A stretch of 64,000 nt of DNA, taken from Sphingomonadaceae bacterium. Its GTDB lineage: Bacteria > Pseudomonadota > Alphaproteobacteria > Sphingomonadales > Sphingomonadaceae. Within the stretch, counting starts at the first letter, position 1, and each line of letters begins with the position of its first letter. The DNA is taken from assembly GCA_019239915.1 (NCBI GenBank), contig JAFAZF010000051.1:124001-188000 (forward strand), in the 5' to 3' direction. Position numbers and translations under genes: made by a program. Below are positions 1,685 to 8,653 of the stretch, piece after piece. The notes beneath the pieces are model-generated. The model saw only the letters and a program-made list of their open reading frames with translations. It had not been told where the DNA came from and ran no database searches.

Positions 1685-2956
1685 TTGCCGGAGCACGCCG
1701 TGAAGCCAAAACTCGACGAAGCGCCTAACATCGGACAGGCGCATCCCGCACCCACCGCACAGGCGATGACGTTGAACACAGAAGACGCCGCTGCTTACGT
1801 CGGGCTTTCCGCCTCGACGATGGAAAAGCTGCGCGTGTCGGGGGAGGGGCCGCGCTACGCGAAGCTGGGCCGACTGGTCCGCTATGAGCGCATAACGGAT
1901 CGCGTCGCTGAGTTGCTCGCCGATCTGTCGGACGCGGGCGCCATCAAGGTCGAGCGCCGCGGCGGCGCGGGGCGGAGCATCGTGATCTACGCCGATCGCT
2001 TCGACGATAGCGACGAGATCAGCCGCAAGCTGCAAGCGGAGATGCCGGCGCGCTTCGCGCCATCGCCAGCCGGCCGCCCCGCCAAAGGAAATCATCCCGC
2101 AGCGGCGGAAATCCGCCATCCCCAGCCGGTGCCGGCGTCAAAGGAAATCATCCCCTTTAAGCCGCGCCGCAAGGCGGCCAAGGGGGCAATGCCCTCGATC
2201 GAATGGGTGCAGCTCGATCGCCTCCAGGTCGACGACAGCTATCAGCGCTCGATCGACACAAGGCCGAGTGCGGCACTCATCAAGCGGATCGGTGACGAGT
2301 GGGATTGGCGCCTTTGCGTGCCGCTTATGGTCTCGCGGCGCGTGGACGGCCTCTACGTCATCGACGGCCAGCATAGGCTGCACGGCGCGCGTCTGCGCGA
2401 CGACGTGCCGCAGCTGCCGTGCTGCATCTCGGTCTACGACGGACCGGCCGACGAAGCCGCGATGTTCGTCGCCGCCAATCGCGAGCGTCGCGCGATGAAC
2501 CGCCTCGACGACTTCCACGCCGCCCAGGCCGGTGGCGATGCCGACGCGCTCGCGGTCGCCGCGCTGATCGAGAGCGTCGGCTTCACCGTCTCGCGCCGCA
2601 CCGGCTCGGCGGCATGGGTGCCGGGCGAGGTCGCGTTCACATCGGCGATCAGCACGATGCGGCGCAAGCATGGCGACGGCATCTGTCGCGCGGCGCTGCA
2701 GGCGATGGCGGACGCGTTCCCCGGCCAGCGGCTGGTGGCCGGCTCATCGGTGTTCACCGCGACCGCGCGGATCCTCGTGAACCCGCCGCCGGCGTTCGAC
2801 CGCGAGCGGCTGTTCCGCGCGCTGCGGACCTTCGACATGCCCGGCTGGGCGGACTTCCTCACCAAGGCGAAGGGCGGCGACGAGCGCGCCCAGCGCCTGC
2901 GGGACATGCTGCTCGCCGCCTATGATGATCTTGGCCGGCCCGAGGTAACGGCATGA
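1685..2956 (+). CDS. AlpA/excisionase-like HTH fused to ParB-like (DUF6551-type) domain
   Basis: N-terminus LNTEDAAAYVGLSASTMEKLRVSGEGPRYAKLGRLVRYE resembles HTH_17/AlpA. C-terminal half has WVQLDRLQVDDSYQR..VPLMVSRRVDGLYVIDGQHRLHGA, a ParB-like signature. Confidence 0.7.
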   Translation: MPEHAVKPKLDEAPNIGQAHPAPTAQAMTLNTEDAAAYVGLSASTMEKLRVSGEGPRYAKLGRLVRYERITDRVAELLADLSDAGAIKVERRGGAGRSIVIYADRFDDSDEISRKLQAEMPARFAPSPAGRPAKGNHPAAAEIRHPQPVPASKEIIPFKPRRKAAKGAMPSIEWVQLDRLQVDDSYQRSIDTRPSAALIKRIGDEWDWRLCVPLMVSRRVDGLYVIDGQHRLHGARLRDDVPQLPCCISVYDGPADEAAMFVAANRERRAMNRLDDFHAAQAGGDADALAVAALIESVGFTVSRRTGSAAWVPGEVAFTSAISTMRRKHGDGICRAALQAMADAFPGQRLVAGSSVFTATARILVNPPPAFDRERLFRALRTFDMPGWADFLTKAKGGDERAQRLRDMLLAAYDDLGRPEVTA

Positions 2957-3031: not shown

Positions 3032-3352
3032 GTGAAAGAGCCGGAGGCGCCGTCACTGAAGGGCAAGCTCGCGAAGAGCGCGATGCACCTGGTGCTCGGC
3101 CACGCCACCGGCGGCGCCGGCAATCTCGCGCTCGAGGGCGCGAGCCATGCCGCCGAGGCGCTCAAGACGAGGGCCGCCAACGCCGCACTCGCCGAGGAGC
3201 TGCGGCTCGCTGGCGATGCGCCGGCGGCGCGCGCGCGTGCGAACGAAGCGGCTGCCAACCTCGCGGCGCAGCTGCGCGCACGTAGCGCGGCCGGCGGTGC
3301 CGCGGCGCGCACCGCGCCGGTGGCCGGCACCATCCAGGACAGGAGCAGGTAA
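3032..3352 (+). CDS. hypothetical phage/island protein, probably N-terminally frameshifted
   Basis: ORF from GTG 3032. Coding-like sequence continues upstream in the same frame (TFTVNTSGTASALLNALRA) without a start codon. Confidence 0.5.
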   Translation: MKEPEAPSLKGKLAKSAMHLVLGHATGGAGNLALEGASHAAEALKTRAANAALAEELRLAGDAPAARARANEAAANLAAQLRARSAAGGAAARTAPVAGTIQDRSR

Positions 3353-4164
3353 TGCGTAAGCTTCTCATCGCCGCGATCGCGCTGCTCGCCGTGCCCGCGC
3401 ACGCCGGGTTCAACGGCAGCGGGCAGTATGTCCTGCCCTATAATTGGGAGAACGACGCTGCCAACGGCCTCGCGATCCGCGCCGACCGCATGGACGGCCA
3501 GGATGCGGATATCGCAGCGGCGCTCTCGAACACGATCACGCGCGACGGGCAGGGCGTGCCGACGGCAGCGATCAATTGGGGCGGCCAGAACCTCAGCAAC
3601 GTGAATGTTCTGTCGGCGGCGTCGCTGGCGCTCAGTGGTCCGCTTAGCGCCGGTTCGCTCGTCTCGCCAGGCGGCGCCACCGGCGGTTATGGCGGCCGCA
3701 CCGTGATCGGCTGGGCCGGATCCGGTCCGATCACCGGTGAGGTGGCGGGAACTTGGGTCATCGATTCGGACAACACGAACCGACTGCGCTTCTACAGCCA
3801 CAATCTCGACAACTCGATCAGCACGATCATGACGGCGGTGCCGACGACTGGCGTCGCGACATTCGGCCAGCGCCCGCTGTTCGGCAGCGCGACGCCGTGG
3901 GACAGCGGCAACCTCAATCCCGCCATCTACGCGCCGATTTCGGGCACCATCTTCACGGGCGATATTGGCCGCGATGGTGCGTTCCTGCTCACCTTCAATT
4001 CGACCAATCCCGAGGTGCTCACCTCGTCGACGGGGAGCGGGCTCATCTTCAACCGCACGCTCAAGAAGTGGTATTTCCAGGTCGACGGCGTCAACGTCGC
4101 CTCGATCGACGCGTCGGGCAATCTGAAGGTCGCGGGCAACATCACCGCGAACACGACGCCATGA
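3352..4164 (+). CDS. phage tail fibre/virion-like protein with N-terminal signal-like sequence
   Basis: MRKLLIAAIALLAVPAHAG start, then tail-fibre-like YVLPYNWENDAANGLAIRADRMDGQDADIAAALSN. ATG overlaps the previous stop. Confidence 0.6.
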   Translation: MRKLLIAAIALLAVPAHAGFNGSGQYVLPYNWENDAANGLAIRADRMDGQDADIAAALSNTITRDGQGVPTAAINWGGQNLSNVNVLSAASLALSGPLSAGSLVSPGGATGGYGGRTVIGWAGSGPITGEVAGTWVIDSDNTNRLRFYSHNLDNSISTIMTAVPTTGVATFGQRPLFGSATPWDSGNLNPAIYAPISGTIFTGDIGRDGAFLLTFNSTNPEVLTSSTGSGLIFNRTLKKWYFQVDGVNVASIDASGNLKVAGNITANTTP

Positions 4165-6274: not shown

Positions 6275-6354
6275 AACCGGGCGCTACCACGAAACACGCA
6301 CGCACGAAAACAACCCCGCTTGTTTGAGCGAGGCGCTTTCGTTAATCGTGTCGG

Positions 6355-6545
6355 TTGGGTGTGAGAGCCCGGAACCAAGATAGGCGGTGAGACCCCGTTG
6401 GCGCGGGGCTGATCGCCGAAAAAGCTGAGCGTGGATTGGCGTCCACAGCTCACCGACGACTTATGTCGGGAGCGCGGGCGCCATGCAATAGCCTTCGGGT
6501 AAAAACGCCCCACCGGTCTCTTGGTCCGGCTCTCACCCTCCCGGC
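6355..6545 (+). ncRNA. candidate structured RNA or cis-regulatory leader
   Basis: Long closing stem 6361-6380 with 6519-6536 (single bulges). It encloses hairpins at 6383-6417, 6426-6452, 6453-6469 and 6476-6510, the last containing a cUUCGg tetraloop. No convincing ORF on either strand. Confidence 0.55.
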
Positions 6546-6604
6546 ACCCGGTCCGTCACCGGGAAAGACAGGCTGTGAGAGGCCTCAACCAAGAGTGCGT
6601 ATCA

Positions 6605-6970
6605 ATGAACCTAGAAACGCCTCCGTCGCCGGCAGCACCGTCGCTGCCCGCCATGTCTGACGTCCTGGGCAATCCCCGCCCGCTCCGCCCGTCGGCGCAC
6701 GCGCACGCGGCCGGTCCTCGCGTGCTTCCCTTCAAGATCGCAGCCGCCAAGCACATGCTCGCGCGCGCCGCGGCGCTGGCCTGCCCGGGCCACGATCGCG
6801 CACAAGAGCGCTGGGGTGAGGCCGTGGACACGGTGATCGCATCGCAGCCGATGACGCTCGCCGAAGTGCGCGCCAAGACGGACCTGATCATCATGGAAGG
6901 CCGGTTCGACGCCGCCACCTTCAATGCGATCGCGGCCGACCTCAAGACGTGGGAGGCGGCCCATGCTTGA
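6605..6970 (+). CDS. hypothetical protein
   Basis: Start ATG 6605 within ORF 6521..6970. C-terminal helical region HMLARAAALACPGHDRAQERWGEAVDTVIASQ. Confidence 0.5.
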   Translation: MNLETPPSPAAPSLPAMSDVLGNPRPLRPSAHAHAAGPRVLPFKIAAAKHMLARAAALACPGHDRAQERWGEAVDTVIASQPMTLAEVRAKTDLIIMEGRFDAATFNAIAADLKTWEAAHA

Positions 6971-7111: not shown

Positions 7112-7837
7112 TTGCTCATTGCCGCGCTCGATGCGCGCGACGGTGACACGGACATCGAGGATATCGACGAACGCGAGCCGGACGATCCGGCGGACCCGTC
7201 CTATCCCGAGGCATATGGCGCTGGTAAGCGCATCATGGTCGGACAGGCTGACTTAGCGCGAGAGGATGACGAGCAAGACGATCCGCTGGAAGCCAATGGC
7301 GATGAGGAAGACGGCAACCGCGACGAGGACGACTTCGTGCGTCACGCCGCCAACGGTCCGGGTTGCCCAATCGCCGATCCCGACGTCAGCGTTGATGACG
7401 GCGATCATAGCTCGGGCGATCGTAGCTATGAGGAGTGGCACACGCTCCCAGGCGCACGCCGCCGAGCCGGGCATGTCACTGGCAAGACGGGCGATGGTTG
7501 GGCGATCGACGAAGATGTGGAGCACGACGACAACGATAGCTGCGCTGCCGCCGACGACGATCCGAGCCGGCTGCCCAGCATTGCCTACGGCGACGGCAAG
7601 CCGGGCGATCGCGATGACGATGAACCGTCGCTAAGCTGGCCGCTTGAGCGCTACGAGGTGCAAAGCCATCCTTCGTCTCGTGACGACGTCGATCTTGAGG
7701 AAGGCGCCGAACGCTTGCGGCCCGGCGTCTTCGGTATCGACCAGACCAAGCTGTTGGTCGGCGAGGAGGGGCGACCCGTCACCCGTCGGCTGCTGCCCGG
7801 CGAGGTTGGGTATCGGGCGACGCGGAGGCGGCCATGA
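7112..7837 (+). CDS. highly acidic hypothetical protein (true N-terminus probably in 6963-7111, out of frame)
   Basis: D/E-rich ORF. Coding-like sequence in the same frame extends upstream (DEITVAVEASTAHALAKLLNRFDEADINRDAIEAAVD) without a start codon. Confidence 0.5.
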   Translation: MLIAALDARDGDTDIEDIDEREPDDPADPSYPEAYGAGKRIMVGQADLAREDDEQDDPLEANGDEEDGNRDEDDFVRHAANGPGCPIADPDVSVDDGDHSSGDRSYEEWHTLPGARRRAGHVTGKTGDGWAIDEDVEHDDNDSCAAADDDPSRLPSIAYGDGKPGDRDDDEPSLSWPLERYEVQSHPSSRDDVDLEEGAERLRPGVFGIDQTKLLVGEEGRPVTRRLLPGEVGYRATRRRP

Positions 7838-8430: not shown

Positions 8431-8576
8431 TCGAGCCGTATGGAGCAGGGGAGGGCGGCTGTCGCCAGCGGAAGCGTCCGCGCCGTACAAATTCCGTGGG
8501 TGCCGGGTGGAGACAATGCGGCTAACGAGCAACCCGACCTGTGCGCCGATAACCCACCTAAGTTCTTGAAAAGAAA

Positions 8577-8653
8577 TGGTGTCCCCGACAGGATTCGAAC
8601 CTGTGGCCCTCAGATTAGGAATCTGATGCTCTATCCTGCTGAGCTACGGGGAC
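8577..8653 (-). tRNA. tRNA-Arg (anticodon CCT)
   Basis: Full cloverleaf read by hand: GTCCCCG TA GCTC..GAGC A TCAGA TTCCTAA TCTGA GGGCC ACAGG TTCGAAT CCTGT CGGGGAC A CCA (77 nt). Confidence 0.95.

Follow-up and report, generated by a model that had tools for sequence, protein, structure and literature searches.

Our analysis suggests that the leader upstream of ORF 6605, in the 64,000-nucleotide stretch of Sphingomonadaceae DNA analysed here (the window), is probably a C4-type antisense-RNA control locus that belongs to a 10.3-kb integrative element and would silence ORF 6605. As read from the sequence, this interpretation is carried by three matched boxes (R1, AR and R2), their three-way co-variation among homologues, the position of R2 over the ribosome-binding site (RBS), the homology of a module of the leader to sRNA-Xcc1 and the mobile-element setting. 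An earlier sequence-only reading had described a repeat-antirepeat-repeat leader at this place; its observation was confirmed, while its interpretation was partly supported.

Architecture of the leader

The sequence-only reading had located R1, the antirepeat AR, R2 and ATG 6605 correctly (Table 1), and the repeat pattern is far above chance. R1 and R2 are identical at 17/20 positions, and their shared 20-mer pattern, with at most 3 mismatches, occurs 2 times in the 64 kb against 0.06 expected, no shuffle having two occurrences. The leader folds with -121.1 kcal/mol (z = -4.45), and none of 200 shuffles was equally stable. In the window, RNAduplex gave -30.5 kcal/mol for R1:AR and -27.6 kcal/mol for AR:R2. 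The full leader folded in silico with R1 and AR paired and R2 free; when R1 was deleted in silico, AR paired with R2 and covered AAGAG.

Four hairpins had been proposed between R1 and AR. All of them exist, but the one at 6453-6469 (P4) is rivalled by the helix in which GUCGGGAG (6465-6472) pairs with CUCCCGGC (6538-6545), and the 3' strand of P4 (6465-6469) is common to both. P4 is weakly supported in the large alignment, with 61.7% of cells paired. RNAalifold also proposed an additional helix within P1 (columns 134-140 with 179-184), which we left out because it conflicts with P5.

The promoter guessed at TTGTTT / GTTAAT fails a strict sigma-70 scan, but the guess held for its position: in 39 homologues, the same positions 5' of R1 are taken up by a conserved CTTG(C) together with a -10-like block. 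The transcript is expected to start at about 6353-6357. About 40-50 bases 5' of R1, many alphaproteobacterial loci have a recurrent CCCC-loop-GGGG inverted repeat directly before the -35 region.

UUGGCG-type loops were found in 37 of the 40 alphaproteobacterial homologues, and 89 of 92 such loops have a stem of at least 3 bp. Hairpins of this type recur 1-5 times on the stretch from R1 to the sRNA module in the window (6383-6452), L007, L041, L052 and others; in L007 one of them is duplicated, and in L041, L042, L065 and L070 similar hairpins lie upstream of the -35. These hairpins may be a protein-binding site.

Table 1. Features of the leader, its downstream genes and the right end of the element (window coordinates unless marked C43, a contig)
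Feature	Position	Strand	Evidence or remark
Probable promoter	-35 (C)TTGTTT 6320-6325, -10 region GTTAAT 6341-6346	+	position conservation in homologues
R1 (a1b1 / seqA-like repeat), GTGAGAGCCCGGAACCAAGA	6361-6380	+	a-box GTGAGAG + b-box ACCAAGA
Hairpin P2, UUGGCG loop	6383-6417	+	sequence; RNAalifold, 6 homologues
Hairpin P3, second UUGGCG loop	6426-6452	+	RNAalifold, 6 homologues; UUGGCG-loop survey
Hairpin P4	6453-6469	+	invariant among six close homologues (RNAalifold)
sRNA-Xcc1-like antisense RNA module	6465-6545	+	Rfam RF02221 match 6465-6553; covariation
Module outer stem	6465-6472 with 6538-6545	+	covaries
P5 of module	about 6475-6509	+	
b' hairpin of module	6513-6516 with 6526-6529	+	covaries
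AR antirepeat, TCTTGGTCCGGCTCTCAC	6519-6536	+	b' in hairpin loop; a' CTCTCAC 6530-6536 single-stranded in module
Small GC-rich hairpin between AR and R2	6546-6563	+	fold; also in close homologues
R2 (a2b2 / seqC-like repeat) over ribosome-binding site, GTGAGAGGCCTCAACCAAGA	6575-6594	+	SD-like AAGAG 6591-6595
ORF 6605 (ATG 6605), 121 aa, presumed target gene	6605-6970	+	coding-frame GC-position bias
Second ORF of presumed operon	7112-7837	+	acidic; LI..LD..DGDxDxE motif, similar in several homologues (first ORFs)
Right att repeat, 50 bp in 3' half of tRNA-Arg(CCT)	8573-8622	.	identical copy C43:122348-122397

Co-variation of the three boxes in Alphaproteobacteria

A DNA search of the family returned five relatives with 71-82% identity, and a covariance model made from the six sequences found four more within the order, some very diverged. 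A pattern that fixed R1 only, with the specificity triplet given as NNN, yielded 23 matching stretches from genome contigs and 18 from viral ones; all these searches covered genome samples with filters. The loci belong to Bradyrhizobium, Sphingomonas, Pseudolabrys, Hansschlegelia, Xanthobacteraceae, Rhodospirillaceae and others. The viral-contig 20-mer matches L032 and L033 were discarded as chance, the structure being absent there, and the window DNA had no match in phage and plasmid collections. The alphaproteobacterial module model, run on 385 genomes of the class, found only 2 further genomes, which means either a patchy distribution of this clade or a filter that lacks sensitivity.

Co-variation was scored in 40 non-redundant complete alphaproteobacterial loci, mostly fetched by the R1-only pattern. 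In every one of them (40/40), AR carries the complement of the six-base R1 a-box and R2 carries a second copy of that box, and ten different triplets are used. The R1/AR/R2 triples at the first specificity position were G-C-G in 23 loci, C-G-C in 11 and A-U-A in 6; at the second, A-U-A in 25 and G-C-G in 15; and at the third, G-C-G in 17, A-U-A in 12, C-G-C in 10 and U-A-U in 1. The consistent co-variation of the R1 box, its AR complement and its R2 copy indicates that selection acts on both of the mutually exclusive helices. The homologues are related, and sequence counts are not independent events; even so, ten triplets need repeated change, and the slid-register controls retain the relatedness.

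In R1:AR, 97.5% of a-helix cells and 96.7% of b-helix cells were paired, with double changes at 10 of 15 pairs, and in the a-helix of AR:R2 the values were 98.1% and 6 of 9 pairs. None of 500 shuffles and no slid register reached these percentages, the slid registers giving 24-50%. Both stems thus carry compensatory changes, where the sequence-only reading had pointed to conservation without compensation as the outcome that would speak against its proposal. Its two mutually exclusive pairings, the second of which covers the likely Shine-Dalgarno of ORF 6605, are borne out by this covariation. R2 lies 25-31 nt 5' of a start codon in all 40 loci. The mean AR:R2 energy was -26.1 kcal/mol for cognate and -16.6 kcal/mol for non-cognate pairs, while cofolding of the module with R2 separated the two weakly (net binding -5.6 cognate vs -3.0 non-cognate) and gave -10.8 or -2.0 for the window, depending on module boundaries.

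The same helices could belong to a purely cis-acting two-state leader, in which R1:AR leaves the RBS open and AR:R2 closes it. The kinetics of folding, the traffic of ribosomes or a protein bound to the RNA would set this switch, with no free antisense RNA. The in silico fold, with its R1:AR pairing and the flip of AR onto R2 after R1 removal, agrees with such a leader, as does the covariation of both helices, and the repeated UUGGCG-loop hairpins resemble a protein or ligand docking site. We nevertheless consider this explanation unlikely. The outer stem and the b' hairpin of the module, which are sensible only for a free module, also covary in the alphaproteobacterial clade; both are incompatible with full R1:AR pairing, and the free-module conformation is therefore apparently under selection as well. 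Two further points against cis action alone, the relationship to a discrete RNA and the diversity of co-resident copies, are given below.

Relationship to sRNA-Xcc1

The sequence-only reading had assigned the leader to no known family, which no longer holds: the 3' half is homologous to sRNA-Xcc1 (RF02221) below the cut-off, and C4 RNA has the same a1b1 - antisense - a2b2 layout. RF02221 matched window positions 6465-6553 with 44.2 bits (E 7.7e-7), below its gathering score of 53 bits, and the alignment is complete (model 1-87) with a few non-canonical pairs. The order-level relative L044 reached 64.3 bits, over the cut-off, and among 18 loci scanned, phage Aaphi23 alone passed it (86.1 bits). 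The Rfam C4 model RF01695 gave no match in the window even at E = 5, RF02221 being the sole family reported. We therefore file the window under neither RF02221 nor RF01695, and describe it as a sub-threshold relative of sRNA-Xcc1 with a probably C4-like mode of action.

In Xcc, sRNA-Xcc1 was cloned as a discrete sRNA of ~88 nt, detected by Northern and with ends mapped by RACE (PMC2996969); the homology of the 3' half to such an RNA argues against a leader that acts in cis only. Its description comes from a plant pathogen, and current work takes it for an sRNA of virulence or of vesicles (PMC12189769, PMC12444791). The window module shares with it the outer stem, P5 with a conserved internal loop and the AR hairpin, and most of the 30 RF02221 loci described below share the R1-AR-R2 context. 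The alphaproteobacterial clade differs in its P5 loop variants, many of them AUGUCCAG...UUAAAAG, and in its next gene, which is not ant or symE. What is new is this clade itself, mostly missed by Rfam, without a U-tract terminator after R1, and with UUGGCG-loop hairpins and unknown downstream proteins.

An RF02221 search of 399 genomes of the phylum matched 56 genomes, and 29 fetched loci together with Aaphi23 gave a repeat-independent test set of 30 sRNA-Xcc1 loci. We scored them for two boxes in order, with the other loci as controls; this ordered two-box score replaced a duplex z-score against shuffled flanks that was too noisy for R2. The cognate R1 upstream scored 15.4 on average vs 11.0 for non-cognate pairs and was the best of 30 in 21 loci; for the cognate R2 downstream the means were 13.0 and 9.6, with the best of 30 in 16 loci. 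Both observed means exceeded all 20,000 permutations.

In phages, the gene that follows is annotated as ant (Aaphi23), KilA-N (Acinetobacter 4316), Ant (Pasteurella Pmp3), antirepressor (Rac-SA53, Bordetella IFTN1) or hypothetical protein (Moraxella Mcat15), and the boxes lie at its RBS. Among the 30 downstream proteins there were 8 matches to Bro-N, 4 to pRha, 2 to KilA-N, 2 to P22_AR_N, 1 to AntA and 2 to SymE. Nearly all of the independent RF02221 loci in other Proteobacteria (L096-L125 and L088-L095) have R1 on the upstream side, and in most of them R2 lies at the RBS of the gene behind, which frequently encodes an antirepressor or SymE. It is reported that sRNA-Xcc1 lies upstream of symE in Xanthomonas integrons (PMC12444791), and two symE loci fetched here have the b-box at the symE RBS, although the gene in that cassette is a toxin gene in an integron and not a prophage regulator. 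In the literature searched, we found no paper with both 'sRNA-Xcc1' and 'antirepressor' and none stating the R1/R2 context of sRNA-Xcc1.

Where several copies reside in one genome, their ARs are all distinct (5/5, 9/9 and 6/6 in three genomes), and the two copies in a fourth genome, G1253, have different boxes. These differing specificities point to trans action and speak against a cis-only leader. They could reflect mutual exclusion of like copies, but random divergence could give the same pattern. No recognisable R2 was found in about 14 of the 20 copies of the three multi-copy genomes, and in two of these genomes most copies have R1 and no clear R2, so that silencing of a neighbour in cis is no general rule. 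The many co-resident copies of G1003 (L130-L134) and G898 (L135-L143), with R1 but mostly no recognisable R2, are possibly stand-alone antisense RNAs.

The mobile element and its downstream genes

The R1-AR-R2 locus sits in an integrative, phage-derived element of ~10.3 kb, whose left att copy (C43:122348-122397) lies about 1.6 kb left of the window and is followed by an integrase at C43:122514-123815. In relatives, the RNA is located between capsid or tape-measure genes and an integrase. Within the element, the ORF at window positions 1685-2956 encodes HTH_17 and DUF6551 (ParB-like, phrog_1033), and the first 80 residues of the one at 3352-4164 resemble a phage virion structural protein (phrog_13989).

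ORF 6605 had no Pfam or PHROG match, and no relatives of it were found in viral contigs. The first ORFs of the alphaproteobacterial loci are diverse and likewise showed no Pfam/PHROGs match and no antirepressor domain. Judged by position, the ORF 6605 product would be antirepressor-like or derepressing. In 16 of 37 first ORFs of these loci, the pI is below 4.6. A very acidic small-protein family with a LI..LD..DGDxDLE-like motif comprises the first ORFs of L004, L007, L041, L043, L046, L052-L054, L068 and L075 and window ORF 7112-7837; these proteins could be DNA mimics or antirepressors. The first ORFs of L006, L057, L061, L062 and L085 have a twin-arginine-like RR motif near the N-terminus and then a hydrophobic stretch.

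With few recognisable phage genes in 10.3 kb and an orphan as ORF 6605, the locus might be taken for a degenerate remnant, a C4-type locus that formerly worked and is now an RNA fossil in a decayed element. We regard this as quite improbable, since the three boxes of the window agree well with one another (-30.5 and -27.6 kcal/mol) and there is no damage to the promoter region, the module or the att repeat. Still less probable is a ligand-binding riboswitch with its aptamer between R1 and AR and AR:R2 as expression platform, which was rejected despite a structured core that is compact, strongly conserved and closed off by a helix resembling P1, and an anti-P1 overlapping the SD, because there is no hint of a ligand, the R1-module spacer varies in length and hairpin number, the downstream genes are unrelated and without a common pathway, the loci are mobile elements, and the conserved core is that of sRNA-Xcc1, a separate sRNA. 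The label 'riboswitch-like' of the sequence-only reading is thus abandoned in its ligand-sensing sense.

Comparison with C4, P4 CI and IsrK

In C4, a1b1 is the upstream target copy. The C4 antisense RNA lies 5' of its own target on the same transcript and has two antisense segments (PMC5320573, PMC8198154); these are the a' and b' loops, b' acting over the RBS and a' providing specificity, and C4 is cut by RNase P (PMC5320573). Weinberg 2010 listed the c4 and c4-a1b1 motifs (PMC2864571). The alphaproteobacterial loci agree with C4 of P1/P7 (RF01695; c4-2 RF02944) in having two target copies complementary to the antisense RNA, one upstream and one at the RBS of the next gene (40/40 loci). They differ in that the window has no covariance-model match and its target is an orphan ORF, not icd/ant. 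Control of an antirepressor operon, as in C4, was not seen here, ORF 6605 having no antirepressor domain, though sRNA-Xcc1 relatives precede such genes.

P4 CI pairs with seqA upstream and seqC downstream, and the antisense RNA is cut from the leader (PMC4825925). The seqA - seqB - seqC order is matched by R1 - AR - R2, and the element is likewise small and integrative. However, P4 uses premature transcription termination on replication genes, whereas the alphaproteobacterial loci lack a U-tract terminator after R1: 37/40 have no T run over 3 there. In Gifsy-1, IsrK and STnc1160 precede anrP, and IsrK is complementary to a processed RNA and shares one transcript with orf45-anrP (PMC4825925). 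This resembles our loci in the upstream RNA complementary to a presumably processed RNA; an antirepressor gene then follows on the single transcript of Gifsy-1. IsrK ends at a Rho-independent terminator, and a terminator-like run of T5-T7 follows R1 in the nine gamma/beta loci inspected, but the alphaproteobacterial leaders have none, and UUGGCG-loop hairpins instead.

Proposed mechanism

The sequence-only reading left a choice between a two-state leader and an independent ncRNA; probably both apply, with one transcript being the leader and the precursor of an antisense RNA of ~85 nt. In the C4-type reading, a promoter at ~6320-6346 would give a transcript that starts just 5' of R1 and can continue into ORF 6605. 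In its 3' part, at about 6465-6550, the leader would fold like sRNA-Xcc1, and this segment would presumably be released by processing at 6465; the 5' end of the module might be made by RNase P as in C4. The free module would display b' in a hairpin loop and a' single-stranded, and could pair with R2 in cis or trans. The RBS would then be masked and ORF 6605 silent, probably with the following genes, during the dormancy of the element. By analogy, the a-box would give the specificity of the module-R2 pairing.

R1, being transcribed first, may serve as a second target: nascent R1 would capture AR and leave R2 free. When R1 is bound by pre-existing antisense RNA, this could signal that the cell already has a resident copy. 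From the systems compared above, we infer for this locus that the RNA is processed, acts in trans, silences the gene behind it and gives immunity between like elements.

Significance

The layout of the locus is the one by which known prophages silence their wake-up genes, here in a form that databases do not recognise. The flanking target copies and the antirepressor genes behind many copies offer a concrete role for sRNA-Xcc1 in antisense immunity and silencing in mobile elements, and sRNA-Xcc1 RNAs in general may be C4-type regulators. The alphaproteobacterial clade extends their range to Bradyrhizobium, Sphingomonas, Pseudolabrys, Hansschlegelia and others, most copies being unannotated at the Rfam cut-off, and the unknown small proteins behind these RNAs are candidate inducers. 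More tentatively, sRNA-Xcc1, which has been filed as a virulence-linked sRNA acting in trans, could form the antisense centre of a modular cassette (R1 - antisense - R2 on the RBS) that is widespread in mobile elements of Proteobacteria and silences interchangeable genes, whether for an antirepressor, a SymE toxin or an unknown small protein. The alphaproteobacterial form would then be a distinct branch, with UUGGCG hairpins that may bind a protein and orphan ORFs that include new prophage-inducing proteins.
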